Source of the DNA: Tropicimonas sp. IMCC34043
GTDB taxonomy: Bacteria; Pseudomonadota; Alphaproteobacteria; Rhodobacterales; Rhodobacteraceae
Direction: 5' to 3'
DNA length: 64,000 nt
Assembly: GCF_003390845.1 (NCBI RefSeq)
Contig: NZ_QMEK01000001.1
Coordinates: forward strand, 124,001-188,000
Positions 5,057 through 20,801 of this stretch are shown here, in pieces. A model generated the notes under the pieces. That model saw only the letters and a list, made by a program, of their open reading frames with translations, did not search any database and was not told the origin of the DNA. The translations under genes were made by a program, and so were the position numbers. Every line of letters begins with the position of its first letter. The first letter of the stretch is position 1.

Positions 5057-5796
5057 GCCAGCGGCTCCGCGGTTGCGCCGCCCGCGGGGGCGCTTGCCAA
5101 GGCCTCAAGGTCCTTGGGCGCGACCGGGTCAAAGACGATCTCGTCGCCGGGCGACAGCGGGAAGGCGGGATCGCCCGTCGGGCGGAAGCAGCGGAATGCG
5201 GTCTGCCCGATGTGGTACCAGCCCGTGGCGCTTTCGGCGGGGAACAGCACGCACTGGCGGACAGCGAGCGCCACGGCACCGGGCGGCACGCGGGTCTTGA
5301 GGTCGCTCTGGCGCGGCAGGTTCCAGCGATCCGGCAATTCGCCGAGATAGGGTTGGCCGGGGGCAAAGCCGATTGCCATGACGCGCAGCCTGCAGGCGGC
5401 AATCTCGGCCACGGCCTCGGCCGTGCTGATGCCCGCGAGGGAGGCTGCAAGCTCGAGCTGGGGGCCATGGTCGCCGCCAAGGACGGTCGGGATGCGCCAG
5501 AGGCGTCGGTTGTGGGGTAGCGGGGCCCGATACCAGTCGCGGCTGTCGAGAAGCGCGCGCAACCCATCCGTCAACGACGCGGGATCGGCGGCGTCGGGGT
5601 CAAAGCGCAGGTAGGTGCCGGCCAGCGAGCTGGAAATCTCCGCCACGCCCGGAAACGCGGCCGCATCCACGGCCGCCCGAAACGCCAGCGCGGCGCGATT
5701 GGCGGGCTCGGACAGGCGGGCGGCGAACTGCACCAGGATCCCGTCGAGCCCGAGCGCGCCAATGCGGGGGAAGACCTGTGGGGGCGTGGCGGTCAT
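5053..5796 (-). CDS. pxpB: 5-oxoprolinase subunit PxpB (KipI/AHS1 family)
   Basis: This 247-residue protein is the B subunit of 5-oxoprolinase and the first gene of the pxpBCA operon. AHS1-family hallmarks include the N-terminal RIGALGLDGILVQF, the central GFAPGQPYLGELP and the GWYHIGQT segment close to the C-terminus. It ends in an ATGA overlap with pxpC. An AGGAA stretch precedes the ATG at 5796. The gap of about 200 bases to the upstream globin gene suggests its own promoter. Confidence 0.92.
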   Translation of the reverse strand: MTATPPQVFPRIGALGLDGILVQFAARLSEPANRAALAFRAAVDAAAFPGVAEISSSLAGTYLRFDPDAADPASLTDGLRALLDSRDWYRAPLPHNRRLWRIPTVLGGDHGPQLELAASLAGISTAEAVAEIAACRLRVMAIGFAPGQPYLGELPDRWNLPRQSDLKTRVPPGAVALAVRQCVLFPAESATGWYHIGQTAFRCFRPTGDPAFPLSPGDEIVFDPVAPKDLEALASAPAGGATAEPLA

Positions 5797-5998
5797 CCGG
5801 GGGCGGTTCCTGCTGTCGGCGGCAGTCTGCCCAGAGGTTCTAGGCCGAGAGCGGGATGGATGGAACCGTCGCGCTCCGTCGCGCGATTCAGCGATGTCTG
5901 GTCCGCGCCCGCCGAGGCTGGCGCGAAACAGTCATACCGCAGGTATGTCTCCCTCGATGGCCGGGGCCGCGCGGCGGTCGAGGCGCCGCGCGCCGAAG

Positions 5999-6418
5999 TC
6001 AGTCCGAAACGCCTCCGGCTTCGATCAGCTTGGCACTGAACTCCTCATAGGCCTTGCGCCAGGCGGCTTCGAGCTCGGGCGTGAACCTCTCGCCGAGTTT
6101 GCTGCGCAACGTGTCCATCAAGGCCTCTTCCATCGGCTTGAAATGCTCGGCCTTGACCCCGAGGGTGGCATGCAGGTGACCGAGCGTGGCGTAGTCGACC
6201 TTGCCGCTGCCCGGATTCTCGAGGTCGGTCAGGATCGTCCCCAACGTGGTCATGAACCGCATGCCCTGACCCTTCAGATCCTCGCGGAACAACTGTCGCA
6301 GATGCGGCGCCCGTTCGAACAGCTTTTCGTAGAATTCGATCGAGGTCGGTTCCAGATAGGGCCGCAGGTCAGAAAAACTCTGATGGACCAGGGCGAGCTC
6401 TTTGTCAGATGGCGGCAT
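5999..6418 (-). CDS. Single-domain globin (bacterial haemoglobin)
   Basis: The 139-residue protein matches single-domain bacterial globins of the Vitreoscilla/flavohaemoglobin haem-domain class. The sequence contains LVHQSFSDLRP, YEKLFERAPHLRQLF in the A-to-C helices, GMRFMTTLGTIL in the E helix and HLHATLGVKAEHF, where the first or second His is the likely proximal (F8) ligand. No reductase domain is attached, so it needs an external electron donor for any NO dioxygenase activity. It is divergent from trxC, with 268 bases between the starts. Binding O2 or NO is a family inference. Confidence 0.85.
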   Translation of the reverse strand: MPPSDKELALVHQSFSDLRPYLEPTSIEFYEKLFERAPHLRQLFREDLKGQGMRFMTTLGTILTDLENPGSGKVDYATLGHLHATLGVKAEHFKPMEEALMDTLRSKLGERFTPELEAAWRKAYEEFSAKLIEAGGVSD

Positions 6419-6686
6419 GGCGGTCTCCTCTTGCGTTCTCGTATTCCGGACTCAAGACTGTCACGGTTCTTTGGGCATCGACTTGACTTGTCGCAAATCC
6501 GGCGCTTTGCCGCAGGTTGTTGACGTTCCTGCCCCGGCAGACGGTCGGCGGTGCCGTCGTCGATGCCTTATTGCGCCGGAAACGCCGGTCAGGGCGCTGC
6601 CGCGGGCACCTTTGCCGGCGTATCCCTTGGAATCCGCGGGTGCTGCATTATTTATTCGTGAAGTGGAATGTAAAGGAGCCGCGGCG

Positions 6687-17051: not shown

Positions 17052-18419
17052 TCAACCTTGCACGCCCGATCCGTCGACGGTCTGGCCGGTCTTCAGGCCG
17101 ATCGGCAGGCTCTCGAGGTAGGCCCCCGGGCGGCGTCCATCGTAGGGGATGCCGTCGATGATATCGCCCGCAGGGGTCGGGGCCTTGAAGCCGTCCGTCT
17201 CCCAGGGAAAGCCGTCCTCTGGGGCGAGACCCTCGTCGACCAGCATTCGCGCGGCCTGCAGATAGATGTCGGGGCGATAGACGCTCTTGGCGGTGTTGAA
17301 ATACCACTGGTCGTCCTTGGACTCCGGGATCTGCCCCCAGCGGCGCATCTGGGTCAGATACCAGATTGCGTCCGAATAGTAGGGATAGGTGGCGTTGTAG
17401 CGGAAGAAGACGTTGAAATCGGGGACCTCGCGCACGTCGCCTTCCTCGTATTCGAAGGTGCCGGTCATCGAGGCGGCGATGACCTCTTCATCGGCGCCGA
17501 CATATGCGGAACGCGACAGGATCGAGACCGCCTCTTCGCGGTTGGCGTTGTCGTTCTCATCGAGCCAGATCGCCGCCCGGATCAGAGCCTTGGTCAGCGC
17601 CAGCGTGGTGTTGGGGTTTTCTTCGGCGAAGGCGGCGGTGATGCCAAAGACCTTCTCGGGGTTGTTCTTCCAAATCTCGTAGTCGGTGATGACCGGCACC
17701 CCGATCCCCTTGAAGACCGCCTGCTGGTTCCAGGGTTCGCCCACGCAATAGCCGTGGATGGTGCCCGCCTCGAGGGTCGAGGGCATCTGCGGCGGCGGCG
17801 TGACCGACAAGAGCACGTCGGCGTCGATCTGGCCGGTGGCGTCGCCGTTTGCATAGAAGCCGGGGTTCAGCCCGCCCGCGGCCAGCCAGTAGCGAAGCTC
17901 GTAATTGTGGGTCGAGACGGGAAAGACCATGCCCATCTTAAAGGCTTCGCCGTTCTTGTTGAACTCTCTGACCGCCGGCACCAGGGCCGCGGCCGAGATC
18001 GGGTGCTGCGGCATGCCGTCGGCGTTCTCGGGGATGCTCGGCTTCATCATCTCCCACACCTCGTTCGACACGGTGATGCCGTTGCCGTTCAGGTCCATGG
18101 AGAAGGGCGTGACGATATGCGCCTCGGTGCCGTAACCGATGGTGGCGGCGAGCGGCTGACCGGCGAGCATGTGGGCGCCGTCGAGCGTGCCGTCGATGAC
18201 GCCGTCCAGCAGCACCTTCCAGTTGGCCTGTGCTTCGAGGGTGACGAAGAGCCCTTCGTCGAGGAAGTAGCCCTGCTCGTAGGCGACCGCGAGCGGCGCC
18301 ATGTCGGTCAACTTGATGAAGCCCAAGGTCAGCTCGCTCTTCTCGAGCTCCAGCATCTGCGCCGCGACGGGGCCGGCAAGAAAGGTGCTGGCCGCGAGGC
18401 CGATCAGGATCTGTTTCAT
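17052..18419 (-). CDS. nrtA: Nitrate ABC transporter substrate-binding protein
   Basis: The 455-residue periplasmic protein captures nitrate for NrtB/NrtCD. It opens with a signal peptide ([20 protein letters not shown]), then [20 protein letters not shown], the standard start of the NrtA/CmpA/SsuA-like binding fold. [10 protein letters not shown]-like and [12 protein letters not shown] segments are the expected ligand-pocket regions. There is no lipobox Cys at the cleavage site, so it is likely soluble in the periplasm. The start ATG at 18419 is preceded by GGGGA and by an RNA leader with a terminator. It is paralogous to the NasS sensor encoded just upstream. Confidence 0.94.
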
Positions 18420-18438
18420 GGTGTCGTCCCCAGTAAGG

Positions 18439-18456
18439 GCCGGCTTCGGGGCCGGC
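18439..18456 (-). promoter_or_regulatory. Hairpin just upstream of the nrtA ribosome-binding site
   Basis: A 6-bp GCCGGC/GCCGGC stem with a six-base loop lies between the attenuator and the nrtA start. It may protect the 5' end of the mRNA or tune access to the ribosome-binding site. Function is inferred from position only. Confidence 0.35.
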
Positions 18457-18464
18457 GAAACACG

Positions 18465-18514
18465 AAAAAAGCCGCTGACGCACTTCGCCTGGTTGGCGAA
18501 GGGTCGAGCGGCTT
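18465..18514 (-). terminator. Intrinsic terminator (attenuator) in the nrtA leader
   Basis: On the minus strand AAGCCGCT (from 18514) pairs with AGCGGCTT, with an inner CTTCGCC/GGCGAAG stem around an AACCA loop, and six T residues follow (18470-18465). It lies before the nrtA start and after two ANTAR-type hairpins, so it should stop transcription unless NasT acts. This is one of the few U-tracted terminators in the window. Confidence 0.85.
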
Positions 18515-18524
18515 TGCTCATCTC

Positions 18525-18573
18525 CCCGGTCGTTCGGGTGTTCGGTCGTGGCGGGCCCCGTTGCCTGCCGACC
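18525..18573 (-). ncRNA. ANTAR (NasT) target leader: two AxxGxx hexaloop hairpins
   Basis: Reading the minus strand, hairpin P1 (18573-18544) has the loop AACGGG (18562-18557) closed by GGC/GCC, extended through one mismatch and a small bulge by GGC/GCC-type and GGTC/GACC pairs. After a five-base linker, hairpin P2 (18538-18525) has the loop AACGAC closed by CCCG/CGGG. Both six-base loops have A at position 1 and G at position 4, the signature recognised by ANTAR-domain antiterminators. The terminator starts 10 bases further on. nasT, an ANTAR gene, lies 1.3 kb upstream. Confidence 0.82.
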
Positions 18574-18595
18574 TCTGAAACATGTGACAGCGGGT

Positions 18596-18623
18596 GTCGT
18601 AAGGGAAGCGATTTCCGCTTCAA
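18596..18623 (-). promoter_or_regulatory. Candidate promoter for the nrtA operon
   Basis: Minus-strand TTGAAG (18623-18618) and TACGAC (18601-18596) are 16 bases apart and would start transcription just ahead of hairpin P1. The -10 is weak, and no convincing sigma-54 or NtrC site was seen nearby. Confidence 0.3.
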
Positions 18624-18681
18624 ACGGTGCGGTTGCGCCGCATTGCAGCGTGATTTGGGCGCACTGCCCGTATCCTGGGCA

Positions 18682-19860
18682 TCATGAGAATCCCGAATCG
18701 AACCGGCGGCCGTCGAAGAAAACATCGCGGCACAGTTTTATCTCGCCTCCGCGGCTGGAGGGCGCGCGCGTATCCGCGGTCAGGGCACCCTCGATTCGGA
18801 CTGAGGCCGCCGGCAGATCGCTCCCCGTCGACGCCAACGCGGCCCGGTGCAGGTCGCTGCGAAAGACCGCCGCCGCGTCACGCATTGCGCGGTCGCGATC
18901 CAGCCCCATGCGCGCCGCGATCTGCCCGCCGATCCAGGCCGCCTGGCTGCGCCACGGAAGGCTGACTGCGCCGTCGTGAAAGCCGATGAACCGGTGGACC
19001 CTCCGCGTCTCGCCCATCGGCGAGATCGCGAGCTGCCCCGACATCGCGCGTTCGATCAGTTCGGGCGAGACATCCAGGTACTCCCGCCGCGCCAGAAGCT
19101 CGGAGGCCAGCGAGCGCTCGCCGGCATCGTCCAGCCACCGGCCCGCGCGCCAGACCGCGCGTATCAACCGGCCCGAGAGCTCAGGCTCGGAGGCGGCCCA
19201 GCCGCTGCGCGTCGCCAGCACCTTCTCCGGCGCGAAGGCCCAGACCGCCGCGCCGGGCAGCAGAAGCTGGCCCATGCCGCTCTCGACCACCTTCGACCCC
19301 CAGGGTTCGCCCACGCAGAAGGCGTCGATCTCACCGGCGCGGATTGCGTCGGCCATGAGCGACGGCGGAACGGTGCGCACGATCAGGCTTTGCGGACTAG
19401 GATGCCCCAGCGACGACAACCAGTAGAAGACGAGTTCGGCATGCATCGAAAAGGGGAACGGCACCCCGATCCGGAGCGGCCCCTCCCCGGCCGCGATCAG
19501 GGCGCGACCGGCGGCGGTGGCGTCGGCGAAGTCGAAGGGGTGGCCCGCCGCGCGCATGCGGGCGGCGAGATCGGTGCTGACCCCCACTACGGTGCCGTTG
19601 ACCGACAGGACCGAGATCGCCTCGAGGCCCGCGCCGCCGCCGCCCAGCCCCAAGGCCATGGACACCGGGATCGGGGCCAGCATGTGCGCGGCGTCCACCT
19701 GCCCGAAAGTCAGTGCATCGCGCGCACTGGCCCAGGACGGTGCCCGGCGCAGCGTCAGCGAGAGGCCTTCCTCGGCGGCGAAGCCCATCTCCTGCGCGGC
19801 GATCAGGGGGGCCGCGTCGATCAGCGGGACGAACCCGATGTCCAGTGTCGTCGCCCTCAT
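18682..19860 (-). CDS. nasS: Nitrate/nitrite sensor NasS (NrtA-like, no signal peptide)
   Basis: The 392-residue cytoplasmic protein is a paralogue of NrtA used as a sensor: without nitrate or nitrite NasS sequesters NasT, and with ligand it releases it (known for Paracoccus and Azotobacter). It starts [20 protein letters not shown], directly in the binding fold and without a signal peptide, and contains [13 protein letters not shown], as in the NrtA ligand region. The ATG at 19860 overlaps the nasT stop (ATGA), so the two partners are co-translated. It ends about 60 bases before the putative nrtA-operon promoter. Confidence 0.93.
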
Positions 19861-20447
19861 CCCAGCAAACTGGCCGCAGTGACAAGCGCTGCGGCGACCT
19901 CGGCCAGCCGTTTGTTTTGATCCATGGCGGCCTTGCGCAGCAGGGAGTAGGCCTCGTCCTCGGTGATCCCTCGGGCGCGCATCAGAAGACCCTTGGCCCG
20001 GTCGATGACTTTGCGCTCCTCGAGCGCGCGCTTGGTCTCGGCCAATTCGGTGCGCATGCGCTGCATCAGGTGGAACCGTGCGATTGCGGCTTCCATCACC
20101 GGCTTGACCCGTGACGAGGTCAGGCCGTCGACGACGTAGGCCGACAGGCCCGCCTCGATCGCCGCAGTCGACAAGCCGGCGTCGCTGCGGTCGACGAACA
20201 GGGCGACGGGGCGTTCCAGAGGGCCACTGGCCAGTGTCAATTCCTCGATGATGTCGCGCGAGGGGTCCGCCACGTCCACCAGCACCAGATCCGGCCGGAT
20301 CTGCGCGATCTGGCGCGCCAGCGATGCCCGCTCGGCCACCACGTGGATCTTGTAATCGGTGCCATCGACCAAGGCATCGACAATAAACCGCGCCCGATCC
20401 GGATCGGACTCGACGACGACGACGGAGAGGGGCTGGACCATGGCCAT
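19857..20447 (-). CDS. nasT: ANTAR-domain response regulator / antiterminator NasT
   Basis: The 196-residue RNA-binding regulator has an N-terminal receiver-like domain (LSVVVVESDPDRARFIVDAL, DLVLVDVADPS) and a C-terminal ANTAR domain of about 60 residues (ALEERKVIDRAKGLLM, GITEDEAYSLLRKAAM). It should bind the paired hexaloop leader ahead of nrtA and let polymerase read through the terminator. Starts at 20447 (MAMVQP) or 20441 (MVQP) are both possible, since neither has a strong ribosome-binding site. Its upstream region runs into the IS-remnant repeats. Confidence 0.92.
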   Translation of the reverse strand: MAMVQPLSVVVVESDPDRARFIVDALVDGTDYKIHVVAERASLARQIAQIRPDLVLVDVADPSRDIIEELTLASGPLERPVALFVDRSDAGLSTAAIEAGLSAYVVDGLTSSRVKPVMEAAIARFHLMQRMRTELAETKRALEERKVIDRAKGLLMRARGITEDEAYSLLRKAAMDQNKRLAEVAAALVTAASLLG

Positions 20448-20582
20448 CGAGTGTCCAGATGTCCGGAGCCGAGACCAATTGCCAGCCAAAAACACCGCTG
20501 ACGGCGCGACTCACCGTAACCGGCCATCGAAACAGCCATTCGCAGTGCCGATGCCTGATTTCTGGGCGCGACCCTGCGAACA

Positions 20583-20801
20583 GTCGAGACGGCATGTGCT
20601 GACCTTAGACCCGACTCTCGTCCGTATTGAAGTAGCGTCCGCGGGCTCATTTCTGATGCTAGGCGGCGCGCATCGCCAGCCCTCTCTTTGCCACGAACTC
20701 GACCGGCGGAATGTTCCCGATGCCTGAGTGTGGTCGGCGGTGGTTGTCGTCGTGCTGCCATGCCCGGATCTGCTCGCGGGCTTCGGTCAGCGACGAGAAC
20801 A
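20583..20801. repeat. 219-bp tandem repeat, copy 1
   Basis: Copy 1 of an imperfect direct repeat (copy 2 at 20802-21020). Each unit holds a short flank starting GTCGAGACGGCATGTGCTG, the IS terminal repeat and the last 50 or so codons of an IS3-type transposase read on the minus strand to a TAG stop. The copies differ at about a dozen positions, so the duplication is not recent. Confidence 0.85.

Follow-up and report, generated by a model that had tools for sequence, protein, structure and literature searches.

A putative NasT-responsive leader with three A1/G4 hexaloop hairpins upstream of nrtA in Tropicimonas sp. IMCC34043

Which hairpins in the RNA between nasS and nrtA would a NasT-type ANTAR protein use to let transcription through into the nitrate genes? 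The question arises from a 64,000-nucleotide stretch of Tropicimonas sp. IMCC34043 DNA (the window; contig NZ_QMEK01000001.1, positions 124,001 to 188,000). An initial annotation placed there a complete ANTAR antitermination leader made of two hexaloop hairpins, "P1" and "P2", with a U-tracted terminator 10 bases beyond P2. From the lack of overlap it suggested that the switch geometry may be non-standard.

As that annotation stated, nasT and nasS lie directly upstream of the leader, all on the minus strand. The nasT product (19857..20447; ATG 20447 was taken, 20441 is possible, and the listed open reading frame reaches 20495) is an ANTAR-domain antiterminator (PF03861, E 2.7e-22). The proposed nitrate sensor nasS (18682..19860, ATG 19860 taken) encodes an NMT1-like protein (PF13379, E 1.6e-58) and owes its name to its place in the gene order and its Pfam family. 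In NCBIfam, neither protein matched a NasT or NasS equivalog. Downstream, nrtA (17052..18419) encodes an NMT1-like binding protein of a nitrate ABC transporter, with the start named in the annotation confirmed as the ATG at 18419, and NrtCD and NirB models match the genes that follow. A NasS-NasT system is recognised by adjoining genes for an ANTAR protein and an NMT1-like sensor that precede nitrate genes, the arrangement found here. Genome-wide, one ANTAR match lies above the Pfam cut-off, that of nasT, and one weak match lies below it. The operon also encodes a GAF-domain protein of 308 aa (14195-13269, minus strand) between nrtCD and nirB.

Read 5' to 3' on the minus strand, from the nasS stop at 18682 to the nrtA ATG, the leader contains three hairpins followed by a terminator. 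Hairpin 1, the earlier "P1", has the core GGC[AACGGG]GCC (loop in brackets) at 18565-18554 within a longer interrupted stem, 18573-18544, and is the proposed recruitment hairpin. Hairpin 2, the earlier "P2", is the middle one, CCCG[AACGAC]CGGG at 18538-18525. Both are real, and both hexaloops have the A1 and G4 ascribed to them; to take the two for a complete pair was a misreading, since they are the first two of three and hairpin 3, GAGC[AAAGCC]GCTC at 18519-18506, was missed. Its hexaloop also carries A1 and G4. The loop-closing pair is C-G in hairpins 1 and 3 and G-C in hairpin 2.

The terminator claim held up: folding shows a strong, bulged intrinsic terminator at 18515-18465 that ends in six U (18470-18465). 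A simple terminator scan did not list it, probably because the stem is bulged. Its 5' arm, AAAGCCGCT, is common with hairpin 3, whose loop and 3' arm supply positions 18515-18507. Neighbouring A1/G4 hexaloop hairpins, one mark of an ANTAR target, are thus found in hairpins 2 and 3, with hairpin 1 in addition, and the other mark, a P2 overlapping an intrinsic terminator, is found at hairpin 3, probably the real P2 and antiterminator. The gap between hairpin 2 and the terminator does exist (9 nt, 18524-18516), but hairpin 2 is unlikely to be the antiterminator. The idea of a non-overlapping switch arose because the middle hairpin was taken for P2; with hairpin 3 as the likely P2 it loses its support, and the usual mutually exclusive geometry, as reported for ANTAR leaders (PMC3369936, PMC3369931), would therefore hold.

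Hairpin 3 and the terminator cannot coexist, because the loop and 3' arm of the one form the 5' arm of the other. In minimum-energy folds of the growing transcript, hairpins 1, 2 and 3 are predicted together at transcript ends 18500 and 18480, and at 18472 the terminator has replaced hairpin 3. The full-length energy is -56.6 kcal/mol, compared with -44.0 kcal/mol when hairpin 3 is forced, a difference of 12.6 kcal/mol. None of 200 dinucleotide shuffles of the 181-nt segment folds as stably as the segment itself (z -3.39). Position 3 of the P2 loop covaries with the terminator 3' arm in 30 of 123 relatives' rows and is unpaired in 12.

The leader is therefore modelled as follows, and very probably acts as a NasT-controlled attenuator of the nitrate-uptake operon with antitermination by hairpin 3, a reading that draws on sequence, predicted folds and analogy. 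Without nitrate, NasS would hold NasT; the polymerase would make hairpins 1 and 2, the stronger terminator would displace hairpin 3, and transcription would end at the U-tract ahead of nrtA. With nitrate, NasS would release NasT, as in studied relatives, and NasT would bind hairpin 1 as it emerges and move, perhaps via hairpin 2, to hairpin 3. By holding hairpin 3 it would occupy the terminator 5' arm and so allow read-through into nrtA, again by analogy with studied relatives. The hairpins thus look like sites of recruitment (1), possible relay (2) and antitermination (3). One predicted fold would speak against this model: at transcript end 18490 hairpin 3 is retained and hairpin 2 lost.

The layout is conserved in the family. 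Of 394 family genomes, sampled evenly from a larger group, 148 gave an nrtA match, as did 9/9 of the genus. We read 138 leaders, 9 from the genus and 129 from 146 further family genomes; the 17 left out were mostly the weakest or broken matches. Named relatives bearing NasT include Profundibacterium, Palleronia, Salipiger, Leisingera and Maritimibacter, which points to a leader family of the Rhodobacterales, a placement verified for Profundibacterium. To be selected, a leader had to have an A1/G4 hexaloop hairpin with one arm in common with a terminator and, 36-66 nt further upstream, another A1/G4 hairpin. By this rule 133/138 leaders have a terminator-overlapping P2 and 123, the window included, also have the outer hairpin (5 dropped out for want of P2 and 10 for want of hairpin 1), high rates that are built in, as the rule itself demands P2, an A1/G4 loop in it and the pairing of the terminator. 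The A1-to-A1 distance from outer hairpin to P2 peaks at 49 nt in the relatives and is 47 in the window.

Since the rule selects for the features under test, a second check was made with a covariance model, the kind of search that the initial annotation had proposed. The model (R1) was built from 39 leaders picked from 72 that passed a spacing and length filter, and its training excluded the window, its genus and its nearest relatives. Searched genome-wide (150 of 2291 first-look candidates scored), it recovered the window leader at 75.5 bits and E 1.2e-16, the next match having E 0.43. It also recovered 14 of the 15 leaders dropped by the rule at E <= 2.9e-5; the remaining one, L134, scored 0.077. 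Rfam gave no relevant family, either for the window (four matches only, far below gathering scores) or for the loci of 20 relatives (one weak match). Motif, neighbouring genes, terminator and family-wide conservation together give good support to the original proposal of a NasT-type ANTAR antitermination leader.

Comparison with known systems shows where the window departs from them. In the eut (EutV), nasF (NasR) and amiE (AmiR) leaders, as described in the available parts of PMC3369931, PMC7496416 and PMC3369936, A1/G4 hexaloops are likewise present and the last hairpin overlaps the terminator in a mutually exclusive manner. Those leaders have two hairpins, 5-12 nt apart in E. faecalis eut, whereas the window has three, with 34 nt from the core of the first to the stem of the last. 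The linker between hairpins 2 and 3 is 5 nt (18524-18520), within the short-linker range of ANTAR targets (5-12 nt in eut, 2-25 nt in actinobacteria); hairpins 1 and 3 alone would fall outside it. By analogy, the 34 nt would lie beyond what EutV tolerates, which counts against the attenuator model. A precedent for three ANTAR-type loops in one RNA is the E. faecalis EutX small RNA, in which an extra single G4 hexaloop stands beside the dual motif, but EutX, as PMC8934654 presents it in the part available, sequesters EutV and is no cis leader. We found no description of a three-hairpin ANTAR cis leader in the open-licence literature searched. The layout with three hairpins looks like a new variant of the known NasT/nitrate system.

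Under the published model for EutV, two loops lying close together are visited in turn by an ANTAR dimer. A leader with three loops, conserved in a family and with an outer-to-last spacing that would not be expected to work under that model, offers a direct test of successive binding. Such leaders could be overlooked or wrongly assigned in surveys that assume two closely linked hairpins, and the first assignment of "P1" and "P2" here is an example.

Given the 34 nt between the outer and the terminator hairpin, hairpin 2 would either close the gap by its folding or be a further contact itself. In many relatives a middle hairpin, typically UCCC[NNNGAYN]GGGA, lies between hairpins 1 and 3. With a strict cut-off a strong middle hairpin is present in 83/123 leaders, compared with a mean of 29.4 and a maximum of 40 in dinucleotide shuffles; the 118/123 reached with a loose cut-off mean little alone, because shuffles give 87.4. 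Alignment-based evidence is weak. A one-column slide raises covariation slightly, from 0.194 to 0.214, although changes on both sides of the stem drop from 57 to 15. Loop length varies, and RNAalifold on the hairpin 2 alignment predicted hairpin 1 and P2 and neither hairpin 2 nor the terminator. We therefore relied on dinucleotide shuffles. When each linker was folded and compared with mononucleotide shuffles of itself, only 35/123 reached p<=0.05.

The first possibility, which we favour tentatively and would put a little below an even call, is that NasT makes a third contact at hairpin 2, either in a relay from 1 through 2 to 3 or under an oligomer that holds several loops. That NasT binds hairpin 2, or that hairpin 2 has any role, is something we infer. 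G4 is conserved in the middle loops (81/123, compared with a mean of 22.8 and a maximum of 37 in dinucleotide shuffles of the same stretches) and A1 with G4 occurs in 43/123 (6.6, maximum 15). G4 is the only base-specific contact of EutV in the accessible text of PMC8934654, and free P. denitrificans NasT is described in PMC3795266 as running as an oligomer that roughly fits a hexamer. Hairpin 2 of the window is itself a perfect A1/G4 hexaloop. On the other hand, A1 is lost in many relatives: among the 56 middle loops of 7 nt, G4 is found in 49 and A at the next position in 44, and A1 in only 30. The G-C closing pair of hairpin 2 also differs from the C-G recovered with NasR by SELEX (PMC7496416, in part), and other causes of G4 conservation are conceivable.

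Leaders in other orders bear on the same point. Among 46 regions upstream of nrtA from outside the family, 14 contain a pair of A1/G4 hairpins separated by 17-26 nt, as hairpins 2 and 3 are in the window (mean in dinucleotide shuffles 0.12, maximum 2). A wider pair, at 42-57 nt, was found in 8/46 (shuffles 0.15, maximum 1), and three A1/G4 hairpins in a row in 5/46 (L166, L167, L210, L213 and L221). A terminator was not required by this rule, which the other regions of the 46 failed. Both the 14 and the 5 are in line with a third contact. Our reading of these spacings is that hairpin 2 may be the positional counterpart of the canonical P1 and hairpin 1 an added outer hairpin; leaders with three loops may have arisen more than once.

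The second possibility, that hairpin 2 is purely a structural spacer which brings hairpins 1 and 3 closer together and lets NasT act on both without touching hairpin 2 itself, is plausible, though we hold it to be less probable than the third contact. The frequent loss of A1 agrees with it, as does the distance from hairpin 2 to P2, which is 5 or 6 nt in 59/118. In the two leaders noticed to have the shortest distance from an A1/G4 hairpin to P2, a middle hairpin with G4 is missing: L054 (36 nt) and L103 (28 nt, by inspection). A 20-nt linker extension abolished antitermination by EutV, according to the part of PMC8934654 available. A pure spacer, however, needs neither the G4 nor the A1 with G4 that exceed the shuffles.

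The model of the initial annotation, in which hairpins 1 and 2 alone make up the ANTAR pair and switching involves no overlap with the terminator, is very unlikely. Both hexaloops are of the right type and hairpin 2 does end ahead of the terminator, but a third A1/G4 hairpin overlaps that terminator in the window and in nearly all family leaders by the rule, and a canonical A1/G4 hexaloop at hairpin 2, giving three canonical hexaloops as in the window, occurs in only 12/123. That the segment, which does follow nasTS, is an ordinary terminator with chance hairpins and no regulation is scarcely credible in view of the family-wide conservation, the R1 match and the adjacent ANTAR gene.

The broader proposal built on the third contact, that in Rhodobacterales a relay from hairpin 1 through 2 to 3, or a NasT oligomer on three loops, lets the recruitment site lie far beyond the two-hairpin linker limit, is one we put forward as a possibility that may well fail.

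The best-studied relative is the nasA leader of P. denitrificans, which shares with the window the types of regulator, the gene order nasT-nasS-leader-nitrate genes and the bacterial order. There, NasT binds the leader RNA with nitrate, and nitrate releases NasT from NasS (PMC3795266, in the part available). It is unlike the window in that the first gene is nasA and two hairpins are described in the accessible text of PMC5424462. Nitrate induction requires HI, which is located 137 bp before nasA. The second hairpin, HII, is 46 bp closer to the gene, at 91 bp; when it was mutated, induction was relatively unaffected and expression on ammonium doubled, which the authors read as attenuation (PMC5424462, in part). 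In the sequence of another strain, HAMBI_2443 (L233), a hairpin GGCGC[AACGGC]GCGCC matches HI by distance. AscI cuts at GGCGCGCC, and this hairpin contains such a site. The same enzyme separated the HI and HII fragments in the work described in PMC5424462 (in part). Distance and the AscI site suggest that HI is the counterpart of hairpin 1.

By distance, HII may stand at the P2 position, and the near-normal induction of its mutant would then, by analogy, count against the attenuator model. R1 found no match at E<=1 in the P. denitrificans locus, and L233 has no run of five T within 5201-6600. The best-studied relative thus has a different leader, and the HII result is therefore evidence neither for nor against the role of hairpin 3.

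The promoter candidate of the initial annotation was not confirmed. A consensus scan of 18400-20800 found none, and TTGAAG-N16-TACGAC (18623-18596) scores 7.3 where the best hits in shuffled upstream regions of the 123 leaders average 7.2. An alternative, TTACGA-CATGTT, aligned to L021, was rejected, its spacer in the window being only 12 nt. No sigma-54-like site was found within 18574-18900 of the window. Outside the family, TGGCA[CT]-N4..6-TTGC occurs somewhere upstream in 13/46 nrtA-upstream regions, with sites upstream of the leader hairpins in L151, L152, L153, L161, L166, L167, L174, L176 and L204. A motif enriched upstream of the leaders, [CT]TGCNNTGCNGC on either strand, occurs in 62/123 upstream regions (mononucleotide shuffles: mean 0.32, maximum 2) and is possibly a regulator or activator site. 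The window carries a copy, CTGCAATGCGGC, at 18648-18637 on the minus strand, a putative activator site.

In the apical regions of the terminators, TCCTCC, which resembles an anti-Shine-Dalgarno stretch, occurs in 35/123 leaders, compared with 2.1 and a maximum of 6 in mononucleotide shuffles (for example L059, L095, L112 and L118); the leader of the window lacks it. Once terminated, such a leader might function as a small RNA. Small RNAs with CCUCCUCCC loops occur in Rhodobacter; no link between them and the TCCTCC leaders was found in a limited literature search or in Rfam (20 loci, some of them without the motif).

Directly upstream of nasT lies a transposase remnant (HTH_Tnp_1, E 4.5e-8; 21199-20590, minus strand), which we take to be IS3-like, accompanied by a partly duplicated, degenerate stretch. 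DNA similarity to 4 of 20 named relatives begins near the nasT ATG, at the earliest 9 nt before it, and the original promoter of nasT may have been displaced in the window.
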